Assembly (NCBI GenBank): GCA_021811315.1 | Contig: JAJZPF010000001.1 | Location: 62,001 to 126,000 of the forward strand | Length of the DNA stretch: 64,000 nucleotides | Direction: 5' to 3' | Origin: a bacterium | GTDB lineage: Bacteria > Elusimicrobiota > Elusimicrobia > Elusimicrobiales > UBA9959 | Shown: piece by piece, positions 19,489-26,840 of the stretch | Layout of the letters: each line of letters starts with the position of its first letter | Numbering within the stretch: position 1 is the stretch's first letter | Notes under the pieces: model-generated | What the model was told of the DNA's origin: nothing | The model's database searches: none | Seen by the model: only the letters and a program-made list of their open reading frames with translations | Position numbers and translations under genes: made by a program

Positions 19489-20004
19489 ATGAGACACCTG
19501 ATCCTGGCTGCTCTCTTCGTACCTTTCTCTTTCGCTTACGGATCGCTGCCGGCGCAGCGCGTCTGCCGTCTGCGGATGTTCAATACCCATACCCTGGAGC
19601 GCATCGACGTGGTCTACAGCCGGGACGGCGTCTACGACCGGGAGGCGCTGGCGAAGCTGGACCTGTTCCTGCGCGACTGGCGTGAGGGTAAGGTCAAACA
19701 TTACGACCCGCGGCTCTTCGACCTGCTCACCGAACTCGCCGACAAAGCAGGGCGGCCGGAGGGCGAGATAAATATCATCTGCGGCTACCGTACCCCGAAG
19801 ACCAATAAACAGCTCCGGAGCCGCAGTTCGGGGGTAGGCGGCAACAGCCTGCATATGAAGGCCGAGGCCATGGATATCCGCCTGCCGGGCGTGAGCACCG
19901 CCCGCCTTCGCGACACCGCCCTCGCCCTCAAACGCGGCGGCGTCGGCTACTATCCCGGCTCCGATTTCGTCCACGTGGACATCGGCCGCGTGCGCCGCTG
20001 GTAA
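19489..20004 (+). CDS. DUF882/YcbK-type peptidase M15 murein hydrolase
   Basis: The 171-residue protein has a signal peptide (residues 1-17) and the DUF882/M15A signature: CGYRTPKTN, then SLHMKAEAMDI (zinc ligands His and Asp) and FVHVDIGRVRRW (His). It resembles E. coli MepK (YcbK), an endopeptidase that cuts 3-3 crosslinks in peptidoglycan. The window also encodes an L,D-transpeptidase, which makes such crosslinks. A TACACTATA box lies only a few bases before the ATG, so the gene may have a very short leader. Confidence 0.88.
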   Translation: MRHLILAALFVPFSFAYGSLPAQRVCRLRMFNTHTLERIDVVYSRDGVYDREALAKLDLFLRDWREGKVKHYDPRLFDLLTELADKAGRPEGEINIICGYRTPKTNKQLRSRSSGVGGNSLHMKAEAMDIRLPGVSTARLRDTALALKRGGVGYYPGSDFVHVDIGRVRRW

Positions 20005-20031
20005 TTTTGTTTACTATCCAGGAAGAAAAGA

Positions 20032-20398
20032 ATGAAACTTACATTTGGGACAAAAGATCAAGTTAAGTTTGAAAATGAAGACAGCTATTATTTTACTTTG
20101 GGATTTTTGGCAAAATCAAATTGTACCGAACTTAGATTAGAGCACAACGAGAATCAAGGTGCTTGGGGGAGTGAGGTGCGAATTCATTGGGGATATTGTA
20201 AATTACCCAGCTCCACTTAAAGACGCATTTACAGCTGGCGTTGGGAGGGTTTTAAAAAGAGTAAACTGTAATGAATATGTTCAGCATATCCATGATAAAC
20301 ACAAATTTGTTTACGGGAAGCTTCAAGACGTTGCTGCTATTCGGCGAACCGTTCCCGCAGAACACTTAGCGTCATTCAAGAGAGGGCTTGCTTCCTAA
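20032..20398 (+). pseudogene. Small AT-rich gene split by a probable frameshift
   Basis: The first part (ATG at 20032, AGGAAG before it) reads 62 codons to a stop at 20218-20220. The second part, one frame over, continues with VRCEFIGDIVNYPAPL and ends at 20398. Removing one G from the G5 run at about 20165-20169 joins the two into a protein of about 121 residues. I do not recognise the family. Base composition matches the adjacent restriction island. It may be a true decay product, an assembly error or two small genes. Confidence 0.55.
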
Positions 20399-21151
20399 TT
20401 ATGTAAATAAGTGATTAAACTTATTGACGTTTGACTGTCTTAATCTGTCTGCAAATTCATTTACATAGAACAGATCTGGTGAAAATCTTTGAGCCCTAAC
20501 ACGTATTTCGAAATCCGGATTCTTTATATTAATTTTAAATAAAACTAATCCGGTACCAAACAACATGCATAATGCCTCCAACCGGCTTTTATCTTCCTCG
20601 GTTATAGTGCTGGGCATTACGATGTATGTTTTTGTCGAAAACAAACGATAAGCCATTGCCTGACCAAATGCGACAACCGACTCAGCTGCGTCAGTTTTTA
20701 TTTCAGCAGAGACAATTTCTGGCTGAAATTTAATTAAATTTGATGCTATCGGCTTATACACCCCAACAACATCAGGCGTGCCCCACTTTTTTTGAAACAC
20801 AGCCCCCCCGATTGCAATAACATCCGTAACCTCGTCAAGCTCAGTCTTTAGCCATTCCGCAAAAGGCTCATAAAAATCACTTTCCGATATCTTTGAAGCA
20901 GGAGTTTCTGTTTGCGCCACATTGTCTTGACTCACAGCCATTGGCATAAACAAACCTCGGCTAGGTTTTGTTATCTCTTTCGGGAACTGATCTTGAAGAT
21001 TCCACACGCAACCATTTATTGTGTTCGAGGATGTTTCTGGGTTGGATTTTAAAATACTACTTACAATCTCACCATACCGAATTCCACCAGGAGATCTCGC
21101 TATAAGTTCACGAGCCATGGTTTTGATTTCTTTGGTGTTGAGCTTGGCCAT
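20399..21151 (-). CDS. Winged-helix PD-(D/E)XK nuclease, probable restriction enzyme
   Basis: The 250-residue protein has an N-terminal winged-helix segment of HARE-HTH type (about 8-65) and a PD-(D/E)XK nuclease core. That core shows P126-D127 in WGTPDVVG, E150-x-K152 in SAEIKTD and a downstream Q164 in AFGQAMAYR. It is the last gene of the methyltransferase-HNH-nuclease operon and probably the DNA-cutting subunit for one of the two methylation specificities. Low GC separates it from the genes on either side of the island. Confidence 0.78.
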   Translation of the reverse strand: MAKLNTKEIKTMARELIARSPGGIRYGEIVSSILKSNPETSSNTINGCVWNLQDQFPKEITKPSRGLFMPMAVSQDNVAQTETPASKISESDFYEPFAEWLKTELDEVTDVIAIGGAVFQKKWGTPDVVGVYKPIASNLIKFQPEIVSAEIKTDAAESVVAFGQAMAYRLFSTKTYIVMPSTITEEDKSRLEALCMLFGTGLVLFKINIKNPDFEIRVRAQRFSPDLFYVNEFADRLRQSNVNKFNHLFT

Positions 21152-21189
21152 ACTTTCCCCCTGCCCAGATCGGAAACAACAACCGGTAC

Positions 21190-22365
21190 TTACTTCTTAG
21201 AGATTTGTTGACGGAGTGAGTCAAAAGAGATTAAAAACGGCAGACTCCATGAATACCCTACATTAACGACATTAACAAGAGATTCTTTCCGATAGAAATA
21301 CTGATGCCTCTTTAGAGAGTTCTCTATAGAAATAGATTTAGAAATCAAGCAAATTTTCTGATATTCCCTGTCCACAACATGAGTATCCCCGCCTGGGTGC
21401 GCTTTGGATAAATGCTGCGATGCTGTCAATTTAATTAGGTTTTCTGGATAAGGGCGCAGCTCCGGGAACTCATTTCGCGGGAAGATATGATGGATATGGT
21501 CAGCGGGACCTTTCCCTAAAGAATCAGGCACTTCACTAGTGGCATGCATATCATTTACTTGATTTTTCAACCTTTGATCTGCGTACGCCCCAGATGACTC
21601 CGCAGGGGCCTCCTCTGCTGCCGACGCCCGAGTGACACTCTTTTCCTTATCCTTGTCTCTAAAATTGATTCGATTGTACATCAAATCTTGGTAATAGAAT
21701 GGGTGCTTAGACATCCGCCCAGCTTCTGTCCCCGGCATGCATTTATCGACCGCAAGAATATTAATTATTTTAGGGAAAATCCGGTTAACCTCTGTTGTAC
21801 CATTAATCTTTGTGTTCCCAATTATTAGTTTTTGGAATTTATTTTTAAATTCCAAAAACTCACTTGGTCCCAATGCCCCTTTCCTGTATAAATCCTCATA
21901 GTGTGCTATATCCGCATAGAACTCACTATCTCTCATGACTTTCTCTAGATATAGGCTTAGGAAATTAAAAGCATTCCGGGAATTACTTGCGATATACTGT
22001 AAAACCTCTTTATTATGAATAATAAATTTAGCTGAACGCCCAGAGTTATCAACAGATAATATCTTTGCATACTCCAGAGCTTTGATTGGCTGGCCAATAA
22101 ATTTATCATACTCGTGAACTGCTGTTTCATCTTTTGGGACAGGCTTAGAAAAGACCTGTTGGACAAGTTTCATGAAATACTGAGAATTCCAAATATCCTT
22201 TATGGTGAACTCAGAAGAGGCCTCGCCTAAAGTAAAAACAAGTACACAGTCAGCGATAAAGGAAAGCACATCCGGGGTAACTTTCTGATCCATAAATCTA
22301 GCATTGCCAGTTTTACGAATATCGAAGTCGTAGCTATCTAAGTGCTTCCGGATCTTTTCAATCAT
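21190..22365 (-). CDS. HNH endonuclease, probable restriction enzyme
   Basis: The start is ATG at 22365, overlapping the methyltransferase stop by 8 bases. The 391-residue protein has an alpha-helical N-terminal part without clear homology. Its HNH nuclease motif lies at residues 289-323 (DHIHHIFPRN, PENLIKL, QHLSKAHPGG), with the metal- and phosphate-binding His and Asn residues present. The region at about 240-275 is low-complexity and could be a linker. Co-transcription with a methyltransferase supports a restriction role. The pairing with the cytosine-C5 half of the fused methyltransferase is a guess. Confidence 0.8.
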   Translation of the reverse strand: MIEKIRKHLDSYDFDIRKTGNARFMDQKVTPDVLSFIADCVLVFTLGEASSEFTIKDIWNSQYFMKLVQQVFSKPVPKDETAVHEYDKFIGQPIKALEYAKILSVDNSGRSAKFIIHNKEVLQYIASNSRNAFNFLSLYLEKVMRDSEFYADIAHYEDLYRKGALGPSEFLEFKNKFQKLIIGNTKINGTTEVNRIFPKIINILAVDKCMPGTEAGRMSKHPFYYQDLMYNRINFRDKDKEKSVTRASAAEEAPAESSGAYADQRLKNQVNDMHATSEVPDSLGKGPADHIHHIFPRNEFPELRPYPENLIKLTASQHLSKAHPGGDTHVVDREYQKICLISKSISIENSLKRHQYFYRKESLVNVVNVGYSWSLPFLISFDSLRQQISKK

Positions 22366-25021
22366 GTTTCGCCCCAAAGGCTTCTACCAATAACTGCGTG
22401 CCAGAACCCTTATTAGCAAAGTCTTCTTTTTTTATTCCAAAAAAGAAAACAGAATTGCTATCAATATTTAACGATCGAGTGCCATGGTTGCGGGCGATTG
22501 CATAGAACTTGATGAATTCAGACGTCCCATAGTACTCTAAATCGTTTTTCGTTATAGGTCTGGTCCCATTTTTAAGGGTAAGAATGGCTACAGAACCATC
22601 CGTAATGGAGTTTTTTGGTAAAAAGCAGGCCCGGGGATTATAGGTCAAGTTTGGGACAAGAACCGCTGAGGGATGGTTGCAGTATTTCCAAACCCCCAAT
22701 TGTACTGCCTCATCGACAAAACAATCGTAACCGTCTATCTCAAGTATCTTGTTAGAGGCAATATTGCGCGATTTCAATACACGTATTTTTCCTTTGGGCT
22801 TAGTAATCTTCTTAGTAATTTGCCTATCCCTAAATGCTTTAAAGATATCTAATTTTAGGTTTCGCGCAACCCCGTCAAAATACTCATTCCGGTAAATTAA
22901 CCAGTATGGGAAATCTTCCGGAAAAATGTAAGACTGTTTTTTATGGGAAATTCCATTTATAATATTCGACTCTATCTTTACCAGGTTATTAGCAGGTGTT
23001 TTATTTGTATGCAAGATAAAACTGATAGTCTCAATTTTTACACCCTTAAATCCATCTTCGCCATAATCATTTATTTTTTGAAACTGGAATTTACTAAGCA
23101 ATCCTCTAGTTTTCCCAAACTCCGGCGCATTAAGCAGACTTTTCGGGACAATGAGTGACACGCATGCGCCTAAAGTCAAAGACTTTTCGATAAAATATGC
23201 AAAAATATTTTTTGTGTCAGTATTAATGACATTTTGGCGATATTTCGCCAACAAGAGATCATTAGTTATTTTTTTAAACGGCGGATTTCCAACCACAATG
23301 TCGTATTTAGTGGTGAATTTATGCAGAAGGAAATCCGCATGTATAAAATTTATCTTAATATTTTCCGGGATCGCGAAGTTTTTTAATAGAAGCTTAAGTG
23401 TTTTTAGCGAGTTTCCATCTACATCGACAACATCAATAACTACTTCAGGAACCGATTTATATTTCTCTATCAAGAGCGGCAGAAAATTACCCACTCCAAT
23501 CGAGGGCTCCAAAACCCGCAAGGTTTTAAACCTTTTCGCCGCGGGGAGATCTTTCACAACTGAATAGCATATATCCTGACCCGTATAGTACGCAGCGTTT
23601 TCATTCCTTAAAGTATTAGAAAATTCCGCAATCTTCGACAGGACGGAGTGCGAGTATTTGCCAGCATTTTCGGCAATGAATTCATTCAGACTTACAACAT
23701 CGTTAATTGCATTCTCCCTAATTACCTGCGCTATACTTTGCCCGGTGAAATCACGGCCAAACAAATAATTTTTAATTTTCAGCGCCATCTGCTGAAAAAT
23801 CACCGTCGGAACAGCCTCTCCTAATGAGTGTCGGATATTCATTTCCGCTTTCGAAAGAAACTTCTTTTTATCCGCTATAGGCAAAGAATTAAGAATTGTC
23901 GTTGGAATACTAGTCCATCGGAATGATTCCGGGACTGACATCATCAACATCACCTCACGAACACTAAAAACCCTATTATCCGTGGGGTGGACAGTGTTCT
24001 GGCTCGATAAAATGTCATTTCGCGTATGTATGCACGGGGAGACCTTGTTCCAACTCTGCCTGGTGTATTTATCCCCATTTTTATTTGCATTACAGACTAA
24101 TTCTCCATTTACAATCTTATGCGGAATCTTTTTGGGATCCTTATTATCAAAAGCTGACTGAGCCTCTTTTATATCCTTTATCCACTCCAGCATAGCCGGG
24201 TTATATTTTTTAAAATTATGGTAAACATCTTTCTCCCAGATATCCCCCATATTCTTTAGTGAAGGCAGATGACCTATTATTTCCCTTAGTGTTCTTTCTT
24301 TTCTTCGTTCCGGAAAAAAATCAAAAGGGGTGACATCTTTCAAGTCCTTGCGAGCGCCTATCACTACAGTTCGCGTTCTGCTTGAGGGGCAGCCGAATTC
24401 TTTAAAATTTATCACATCACTATATATGTTGTAGTGTCCCGCTAGATTCGATTCTATTGCATCCTTTATCTTTTTGGTTGCCCCATCCACATCTGTGCAT
24501 GTAGTATTCAAAAATGCGCGCACATTTTCAAAAATAAAGAATCTCGGTTTAATTGATTTTACAAGCAAAACAGACTCGACAACCAGCGAGTTCCTTTGCA
24601 ATTCATTCCCTTTTTTATGATTTGCGACAGACATGCCCTGGCAGGGCGGGGTCGCAATAAGGACGTCAAGAGCCCCCTCACTTTTTAACCCCCACTTCTT
24701 TAATTCAGCAAAAATTTTAGATTTTGTTTCAGGCTTAGAGATATCATCGGATATATATCCGGTCTCATGCCGACATTTTTCATTATACTTCTGTATTTCA
24801 AGCCTTTTTTTTAATATTTCGACTGTAGCGACACAATCATATCCCTCGAGTTTAAATCCATAACACCCAATGCCTGCTCCACTAAACAAGCTTAAATAGG
24901 TAAGTTTTTTGTCGGATTTCCCACTCATACTTATATTATACTTTGTTTGTAAATTCATTTTCTTCTCATAAACATTTAGCAGCTCCGGCTGATAGAGGTT
25001 AGGCTCATTCTTATCTATCAT
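22358..25021 (-). CDS. Bifunctional DNA methyltransferase: cytosine-C5 domain fused to adenine-N6 domain
   Basis: ATG at 25021 is preferred to the upstream alternative start at 25042. The 887-residue chain has a full m5C methyltransferase (about 40-425). Visible motifs are FSGAG (46-50), the PPC loop with catalytic C127, ENV (165-167), SRTRTVVIGA and the SLGEAVP motif X-like segment (399-405). A second methyltransferase of the Eco57I/TaqI gamma type follows (about 465-700). It has EPSIGVGNF (505-513) and catalytic NPPF (579-582), then a TaqI-like target-recognition region to the end. Both active sites look intact. It should modify DNA at two kinds of base and protect against the two downstream nucleases. 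Confidence 0.9.
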   Translation of the reverse strand: MIDKNEPNLYQPELLNVYEKKMNLQTKYNISMSGKSDKKLTYLSLFSGAGIGCYGFKLEGYDCVATVEILKKRLEIQKYNEKCRHETGYISDDISKPETKSKIFAELKKWGLKSEGALDVLIATPPCQGMSVANHKKGNELQRNSLVVESVLLVKSIKPRFFIFENVRAFLNTTCTDVDGATKKIKDAIESNLAGHYNIYSDVINFKEFGCPSSRTRTVVIGARKDLKDVTPFDFFPERRKERTLREIIGHLPSLKNMGDIWEKDVYHNFKKYNPAMLEWIKDIKEAQSAFDNKDPKKIPHKIVNGELVCNANKNGDKYTRQSWNKVSPCIHTRNDILSSQNTVHPTDNRVFSVREVMLMMSVPESFRWTSIPTTILNSLPIADKKKFLSKAEMNIRHSLGEAVPTVIFQQMALKIKNYLFGRDFTGQSIAQVIRENAINDVVSLNEFIAENAGKYSHSVLSKIAEFSNTLRNENAAYYTGQDICYSVVKDLPAAKRFKTLRVLEPSIGVGNFLPLLIEKYKSVPEVVIDVVDVDGNSLKTLKLLLKNFAIPENIKINFIHADFLLHKFTTKYDIVVGNPPFKKITNDLLLAKYRQNVINTDTKNIFAYFIEKSLTLGACVSLIVPKSLLNAPEFGKTRGLLSKFQFQKINDYGEDGFKGVKIETISFILHTNKTPANNLVKIESNIINGISHKKQSYIFPEDFPYWLIYRNEYFDGVARNLKLDIFKAFRDRQITKKITKPKGKIRVLKSRNIASNKILEIDGYDCFVDEAVQLGVWKYCNHPSAVLVPNLTYNPRACFLPKNSITDGSVAILTLKNGTRPITKNDLEYYGTSEFIKFYAIARNHGTRSLNIDSNSVFFFGIKKEDFANKGSGTQLLVEAFGAKHD

Positions 25022-25066
25022 ATTGCCCCCAAAATGCCCCACTTATTTTCCCATAGTGTAGCAGGC

Positions 25067-25092
25067 CAACCCGACAAGGGCTTGTCGGGTTG
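25067..25092. repeat. 26-bp near-perfect palindrome at the restriction island edge
   Basis: Two 12-base arms (CAACCCGACAAG and its complement) are separated by GG. It lies between the end of the L,D-transpeptidase gene and the start of the methyltransferase gene. There is no clear T tract on the minus strand. It could be a terminator for the transpeptidase operon, an operator of the restriction operon or an integration scar. Confidence 0.75.
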
Positions 25093-25175
25093 TAAAAATG
25101 CTTTTAGTGGATATTTAAAGTATTAGGTTAATTGTCCGGAACCTACCCGAACAATCTTATTTACTTGTTAACATT

Positions 25176-26840
25176 TTACCGCGCCGCCAACCTCGCCCTC
25201 TCCTCAAAAGCCTTTCCTTCGGCCGCGTCGCGGCCGTAGATATCCTCAAAAAAACGCACTTCGCCCCCCTCCTTGACCGCCGCCGTCCCGTACTGGAGCA
25301 GCACGCTGACGGGGTCGGAGAGTTTTACCGTGACCGTTTCGGTTCCCTCCATTGCCGCCCGGATGCTCGCTGGCGTCCAGCCCGGCTCGTCGCGCAGCAC
25401 CCAGGCCGCCAGCGCGAGGGGATCTTCCACCCGGATGCAGCCGTGGCTCAGGTCCCGCTCCGATTCCCAGAAGCCCCTCCTTGAGGGCGTGCCGTGAAGG
25501 TAGACGCTGTGGGAGTTGGGCATAAAGAACTTCACCAGGCCGAGCGAATTATGGGGGCCCGGCCTTTGCCTGAGATACAGCTTGCCGTCCCTGAGCCGGG
25601 ACAGGACCTCCGCGCTGACCGCCCCGGTGCTGACTATGGCGTCCCTGCCGTCGATCACATCGATGTCGTTTTCCGCCAGGTAGGCGGCGTTCTTTTCCAA
25701 CTTCGGAACCAGCTCCGCAAGCTGGATGCTCATGGGCACGGTCCACGGAGGACGGAATACCACCTCGGTCAGCTGGCTTGCGAAGACCGGGGTTTCATGC
25801 TCGAAAGCCATGCCGACCACCACTTTCTGCGACGGCGCATTGCCGGCGTAAAGGCGGAATTCCGGGATATTGACGAGGATGGGGGGCCTGGAGAACCGGT
25901 GAGGCAGCCAGCGCCACCGCTCAAGAGTAAGCTGAAGCTGGCGCAGGCGCCGGGCCAGCGGCGTATTGAGCTGGACAAGGGTCTGGGCGCCGAGAAAACC
26001 GTCGGGCGGCAGCCCGTGGCGGCGTTGAAAACGCTTCACGGCTTTCGCAAGAGCCCCCGTATAGCGTCTCGGGCTGGAAGCGGCGCGGCGCGGAAGGTCG
26101 CCCACCAGCTTAAGCAGCCGCGTAAGCCGGGGTATGCCCGGATAGGGGTCCCCGGGCCTGACCGGGGTCGCGGGAGCAGGAAGCTGTTCCCCGTCATCCC
26201 GGAGTGCCAGCTCCTTATAGAGCTGCACGGCTTTTACAAGCCTGCGGTAGGAGGGAAAAGCCGGTTCTACGGACCGGAAAGCCGCCTCTACGTCGGCGGC
26301 GGACAGGACCCGTTTCCGGAGGAAATCAGAGGGGCCGCGGATATCCGGCTCAAGTTCAAAAGTGGAATGAAAAGGCTGCGGATTGATGCGGCCCAGCCGC
26401 AGGTCAAGGATATAGCGCATCGCGCAGACGGTCAGGGCCAGGTCGAAACGGAGAAGCTCGGAGTCCGAGGCGTCGCCTGAACTTCCCAGTTCCGCGAGGC
26501 GTCCGGCCCATAAGGGACTGTCGTAATCCTGGGCCAGCAGGCCTTCATTGTCGGCCGCCTGCAGCCGTTTGATCACGGCGCGGGCCTTCGCGGTCGGCCT
26601 GGACTTCAGCACCCAGGTCAGCGCGTAGCCCGCGGAATTGTAAAAATCCCCGATCTCTTCCCGGTACTCGCCGAACTCAGGCCGCTGAAGAACGGCCAGG
26701 CTCCCCGAGGCCACGAGACCGCGCAGTTCGCTTTCCCCTGACGCGGAAAGGCGCTGCGGCTCCGCGGGAGGCTCTTCTTGCGCTGCGGAAGCATGGGAAA
26801 ACAGGAGGGCAAGCAGCACCGCGCAAAGAGCTTTCGCCAT
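25176..26840 (-). CDS. YcbB/LdtD-type L,D-transpeptidase
   Basis: The 554-residue protein has a signal peptide (1-19), a YcbB-type scaffold domain (about 50-230), a peptidoglycan-binding domain (about 255-290; AVKRFQRRHGLPPDGFLGAQTL) and a YkuD catalytic domain. The catalytic motif is SHGCIRVEDP with nucleophile C468, preceded by the conserved LHGTPSR. These periplasmic enzymes make 3-3 peptidoglycan crosslinks or attach proteins to the wall. It ends a five-gene minus-strand run of outer-membrane and secreted proteins, starting one base after the preceding gene. Confidence 0.92.
   Translation of the reverse strand: MAKALCAVLLALLFSHASAAQEEPPAEPQRLSASGESELRGLVASGSLAVLQRPEFGEYREEIGDFYNSAGYALTWVLKSRPTAKARAVIKRLQAADNEGLLAQDYDSPLWAGRLAELGSSGDASDSELLRFDLALTVCAMRYILDLRLGRINPQPFHSTFELEPDIRGPSDFLRKRVLSAADVEAAFRSVEPAFPSYRRLVKAVQLYKELALRDDGEQLPAPATPVRPGDPYPGIPRLTRLLKLVGDLPRRAASSPRRYTGALAKAVKRFQRRHGLPPDGFLGAQTLVQLNTPLARRLRQLQLTLERWRWLPHRFSRPPILVNIPEFRLYAGNAPSQKVVVGMAFEHETPVFASQLTEVVFRPPWTVPMSIQLAELVPKLEKNAAYLAENDIDVIDGRDAIVSTGAVSAEVLSRLRDGKLYLRQRPGPHNSLGLVKFFMPNSHSVYLHGTPSRRGFWESERDLSHGCIRVEDPLALAAWVLRDEPGWTPASIRAAMEGTETVTVKLSDPVSVLLQYGTAAVKEGGEVRFFEDIYGRDAAEGKAFEERARLAAR

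Follow-up and report, generated by a model that had tools for sequence, protein, structure and literature searches.

The low-GC segment at positions 20006..25176 of the window, by which we mean the entire 64,000-nucleotide stretch of DNA that was analysed, carries the genes of a fused DNA methyltransferase (M), an HNH restriction endonuclease (R) and a winged-helix protein with a PD-(D/E)XK-like nuclease motif, together with the remnant of a small conserved gene. With a probability of about 94%, this locus represents a Type IIS restriction-modification system of the HpyAV/Hin4II type that resides on a recently inserted block of 5.17 kb, next to a co-inserted PD-(D/E)XK gene that is probably a passenger. 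The system is real, apparently intact and of an already described kind. As a result of the analysis, the locus no longer counts as a candidate for a "new composite system", and a conserved, putatively accessory gene came to light that matched no family in the libraries scanned.

The fused methyltransferase and its HNH endonuclease

The methyltransferase gene is located on the minus strand (22358..25042) and specifies 894 amino acids when the GTG codon at position 25042 is taken as start, or 887 amino acids with the ATG codon at position 25021; it ends at position 22358. The protein consists of an N-terminal m5C domain (residues ~45-428) with canonical motif order and a gamma-class m6A domain (residues ~440-872). 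In the 894-residue numbering, the m5C domain contains motif I (FSGAG, 53), PPCQ (132) with the catalytic cysteine C134 (C127 in the 887-residue numbering), ENV (172) and a motif-X region (GEAVPT, ~408), and the m6A domain contains motif I (EPSIGVGNF, 512) and motif IV (NPPF, 586). Searches against Pfam detected PF00145 (DNA_methylase) at residues 48-376 with an E-value of 1e-40 and PF07669 (Eco57I) at residues 555-662 with an E-value of 3e-13. The motifs and Pfam matches confirmed that intact m5C and gamma-type m6A motifs are present on one polypeptide, as stated in the preliminary description.

The PADLOC profile PDLC03277, a Type II methyltransferase profile of 823 positions that covers the entire fusion, matched residues 44-872 with an E-value of 3.6e-234, and the two halves matched PDLC03370 (387 positions, E 7e-139) and PDLC03382 (445 positions, E 9e-97). 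The lengths of these profiles are identical to the published lengths of M.HpyAV (823 aa) and M1/M2.Hin4II (387/445 aa; PMC2816704). All three profiles also match split methyltransferase genes of Acinetobacter.

The adjacent ORF on the same strand (21190..22377) encodes an HNH restriction endonuclease of the HpyAV type. Its likely start is the ATG codon at position 22365, with an overlap of 8 nt with the stop of the methyltransferase gene. The protein matched the PADLOC profile PDLC03488 (REase_II, Type II restriction enzyme) with an E-value of 3e-93. The earlier view of the locus as a restriction system was correct. The catalytic residues H296, H297, N313 and H322 are invariant among 32 homologues, and their spacing equals that of the published catalytic residues H294, H295, N311 and H320 of HpyAV (PMC2816704). 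The identity to the Helicobacter-like group is only ~40%. The structure of the HNH protein was predicted with a pLDDT of 85.6, and a Foldseek search of this model against the PDB returned no match at E <= 0.001. Profiles of the HNH, PD-(D/E)XK and small proteins likewise gave no credible match among PDB sequences.

A scan with the HNH alignment of one genome per species confirmed 119 relatives, 80 of which were kept and combined with five viral contigs and three plasmids into a set of 88 HpyAV-type loci. Single-protein scans of viral contigs yielded one weak relative for P0001 and none for P0003. The relatives belong to Bacteroidota, Patescibacteria, Bacillota, proteobacteria and other groups, so that the HpyAV type is widespread. 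Both methyltransferase halves are present in 83 loci, where they form a one-frame fusion in 70 cases and are separate in 13, and the methyltransferase gene is located immediately upstream of the endonuclease gene in 81 out of 84 loci. The survey also bears on the question of whether the fusion in the window might be an assembly chimera of two separate methyltransferase genes. Such an artefact is conceivable in a draft genome of 48 contigs and 63% completeness, but its probability is vanishingly small, as 70 independent loci from different phyla show the same in-frame fusion and as the junction of M.HpyAV, a true C5-cytosine/N6-adenine methyltransferase fusion, was resequenced (Chan 2010, PMC2816704).

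The window system was compared with HpyAV and Hin4II by means of profiles, Helicobacter relatives and published residues. HpyAV of Helicobacter pylori 26695 (HP0054/HP0053, CCTTC 6/5) shares the single methyltransferase chain with N-terminal m5C and C-terminal gamma-class m6A domains, the HNH endonuclease gene immediately downstream on the same strand, the equal catalytic spacing and the avoidance of CCTTC in the family genes. It differs by the low identity of the HNH proteins noted above and by the additional PD-(D/E)XK gene and broken small gene of the window. Hin4II of Haemophilus influenzae RFL4, an isoschizomer of HpyAV (PMC2816704), has homologous m5C, m6A and HNH components, but its two methyltransferases are encoded by separate genes, as in the 13 surveyed loci with separate halves.

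Fusions of this general kind have been reviewed as "DoubleMTases" for asymmetric sites, including those of Esp3I/BsmBI and BseRI (PMC3874165). The earlier statement that restriction systems normally use one chemistry per polypeptide is incorrect for Type IIS systems, and the arrangement, which had been considered possibly undescribed, is on record from HpyAV since 2010 (PMC2816704) and from these DoubleMTases. Esp3I/BsmBI (CGTCTC) resembles the window system as a Type IIS system with a fused gamma-class m6A and m5C modification enzyme (PMC3874165), but there the gamma-class m6A domain comes first and is followed by a circularly permuted m5C domain (PMC5944983), whereas the window protein starts with an m5C domain in canonical order. 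An assignment to the Esp3I/BsmBI fused type was rejected on account of this domain order and of the partial match to the NCBIfam model met_A_Alw26, which reached 51 bits against a cut-off of 353.5. HphI/NgoAXVI (GGTGA) and MnlI/HpyAVI (CCTC) also act on asymmetric sites; HphI and MnlI are HNH enzymes, and separate m5C and m6A methyltransferases are reported for NgoAXVI and HpyAVI. These systems differ from that of the window in their separate methyltransferase genes and in sites other than CCTTC. Membership in DISARM, Druantia or BREX was rejected as well, the methyltransferase giving only weak partial matches.

Predicted target site

The HNH endonuclease HpyAV is encoded next to M.HpyAV and recognises CCTTC(6/5) in a system that works with a single restriction endonuclease (PMC2816704). 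In the SMRT methylome of H. pylori, HP0054 alone was assigned both the m5C mark in CCTTC (91.9% detected) and the m6A mark on the opposite strand (96.0%; PMC3936762). The methyltransferase and endonuclease genes of 53 systems were examined for avoided pentamers with a maximal-order Markov model, in which CCTTC/GAAGG showed the strongest depletion among 512 pentamer pairs, with 95 observed and 191 expected occurrences. Moreover, the depletion was compared with shuffled sequences in which only synonymous codons were exchanged, and the protein sequence was thereby controlled for. CCTTC/GAAGG ranked first in the window-like subgroup (52 observed, 144 expected) and in the HpyAV-like subgroup (29 observed, 70 expected), and it ranked second behind AGATC in the pooled set. 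The two genes of the window itself contain two copies of CCTTC in comparison with 5.4 expected (z -1.6), which is in the direction of depletion and not significant alone.

Across phyla, Helicobacter included, the m5C TRD and the catalytic part of the domain are equally conserved, the TRD with 48-70% identity to the window protein, and such conservation would be unusual if the specificities were different. These in-silico data support CCTTC/GAAGG as the common target of the whole family, and the site of the window copy is most likely 5'-CCTTC-3'/5'-GAAGG-3'. A target other than CCTTC within the same family, namely a one-base variant, might be suspected from the divergence of the HNH protein from the Helicobacter-like group. 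This alternative is nevertheless unlikely, since the same pentamer is the most avoided one in both subgroups and the m5C TRD is conserved. In the DNA flanking the 53 HpyAV-type loci, CCTTC/GAAGG occurs 754 times in comparison with 1010 expected occurrences (rank 4 of 512), hinting at a long-term avoidance of CCTTC by the carrier genomes.

From the features of the family we infer the activity, the exact specificity and the cut position of the window copy. An asymmetric site such as CCTTC/GAAGG would need one mark per strand, and therefore no single methyltransferase could protect both strands. One strand would receive its mark from the m5C domain, at a cytosine of CCTTC, while the gamma-class domain would methylate the adenine of GAAGG on the opposite strand. 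DNA without methylation would be cut by the HNH enzyme downstream of the site, at a distance of a few bases (6/5 for HpyAV). The suggestion in the preliminary description that both marks protect one site corresponds to the established logic of the HpyAV family, with one mark on each strand of an asymmetric site.

The inserted block and the PD-(D/E)XK gene

The block has a GC content of 39% in comparison with ~60% in its surroundings, and the GC3 values of the methyltransferase, HNH and PD-(D/E)XK genes range from 0.36 to 0.41, compared with 0.75-0.81 in the neighbouring genes. In a genome of the same genus (G019), the flanks of which are 90% identical, the block is replaced by 4-5 bp between two convergent neighbours, and the site is empty in a second genome (G027) too. 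The HNH gene was absent from all 295 genomes sampled across the phylum, that of the window excepted. We therefore interpret the block as most probably acquired by recent horizontal transfer. The insertion point (20004-20008 / 25173-25180) lies exactly between the 3' ends of the two convergent genes, and no integrase or transposase gene was found within the 5.17-kb block.

The third gene of the block (20399..21151, minus strand) begins 38 nt past the stop of the HNH gene, and the order of an HNH nuclease followed by a winged-helix PD-(D/E)XK protein downstream of the fusion was recovered as originally described. The deduced protein contains the signature T125-P-D127, E150-x-K152 and Q164, which is kept in its relatives, and its structure was predicted poorly (pLDDT 53.7). 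It yielded no Pfam match at the curated cut-off and no match in NCBIfam, PADLOC or PHROGs. A relative in Novosphingobium follows an 1148-aa Eco57I-like methyltransferase, and one in another genome of the phylum (L103:1489-2226) follows a beta-class methyltransferase. Other relatives have a Fic gene as their neighbour (L104), lie in the vicinity of a Type I-like system (L112) or occur alone in prophage-like contigs (L113:5983-6744 and L114:5980-6729). L015:7998-8786 also belongs to this winged-helix PD-(D/E)XK family, whose members are found in prophage-like contigs and immediately downstream of unrelated DNA methyltransferase genes.

The distribution of these relatives is relevant to the earlier proposal that the locus forms a new composite system, with the HNH nuclease enforcing one methyl mark and the PD-(D/E)XK nuclease the other. 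The three genes follow one another on the same strand at short distances (the 8-nt overlap and the 38-nt gap), share equally low GC3 values and are part of one inserted block, all of which would agree with such a composite. Examination of the co-occurrence of the fusion with both nucleases upheld only its HNH part, as relatives of the PD-(D/E)XK protein were found in none of the 88 HpyAV-type loci. Since they also occur independently of the fusion in the contexts described above, and since HpyAV needs only one restriction endonuclease (PMC2816704), a pairing of each nuclease with one mark is highly improbable. The PD-(D/E)XK gene rather appears to move separately and to insert frequently in the neighbourhood of modification genes. 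In the window it is probably a co-inserted passenger outside the conserved M-R unit, and none of the observations connects it with the HpyAV-type system. With the PD-(D/E)XK gene as a separate passenger, the arrangement of the locus is therefore ordinary. As the examined relatives either have the whole block or lack it, the PD-(D/E)XK gene may be co-transcribed with the M and HNH genes.

A small gene beside HNH and variant loci

The remnant of a small conserved gene (20032..20398, plus strand) abuts the stop of the PD-(D/E)XK gene; it is frameshifted and inverted with respect to the other genes of the block. Of 86 HpyAV-type loci, 31 have a relative of this gene as the neighbour of the HNH gene. 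Intact relatives comprise 115-130 amino acids with the pattern QGAWGSEGRI ... R-x-NCN-E/D-F, for example in the Flavobacterium johnsoniae locus (L039:10215-10592) and at L023:6622-6996 and L073:10251-10613. No Pfam or PADLOC family was found for the small protein. The gene was detected on only two of 72,556 plasmids, both of which carry an HpyAV-type system, and both matches in viral contigs are HpyAV-type loci; one weak match came from an unannotated phage record of 4.6 kb.

This linkage suggests that the small gene is an accessory of HpyAV-type systems, and no description of a small conserved gene beside HNH was found. We tentatively consider, as a possibility somewhat short of even odds, that HpyAV-type systems can include a third, optional component that has gone unreported, almost absent elsewhere in the searched collections, that may modulate or assist the restriction endonuclease and that is broken and inverted in the window, with the winged-helix PD-(D/E)XK gene in its place.

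Several loci of the survey deviate from the common organisation. Some cases with separate methyltransferase halves are not true splits, as those of L050 and L064 resemble damaged genes, and at L078 all three genes are fragmented under the standard code, which may reflect a recoded stop. At L031:1290-4690 (Flavobacterium restrictum) and L052:5996-10137 (Paludibacter), the m5C gene ends just short of motif X without an m6A half, and a NOV_C (PF13020) protein of ~253 aa is encoded between the truncated gene and an intact-looking HNH gene, an arrangement that is either a recurrent variant or a common state of decay. At L059:8989-11760, the HNH ORF is extended to 923 aa by a long C-terminal extension, possibly a fusion or an assembly effect, with a YGTHF stretch that resembles the MACPF signature.
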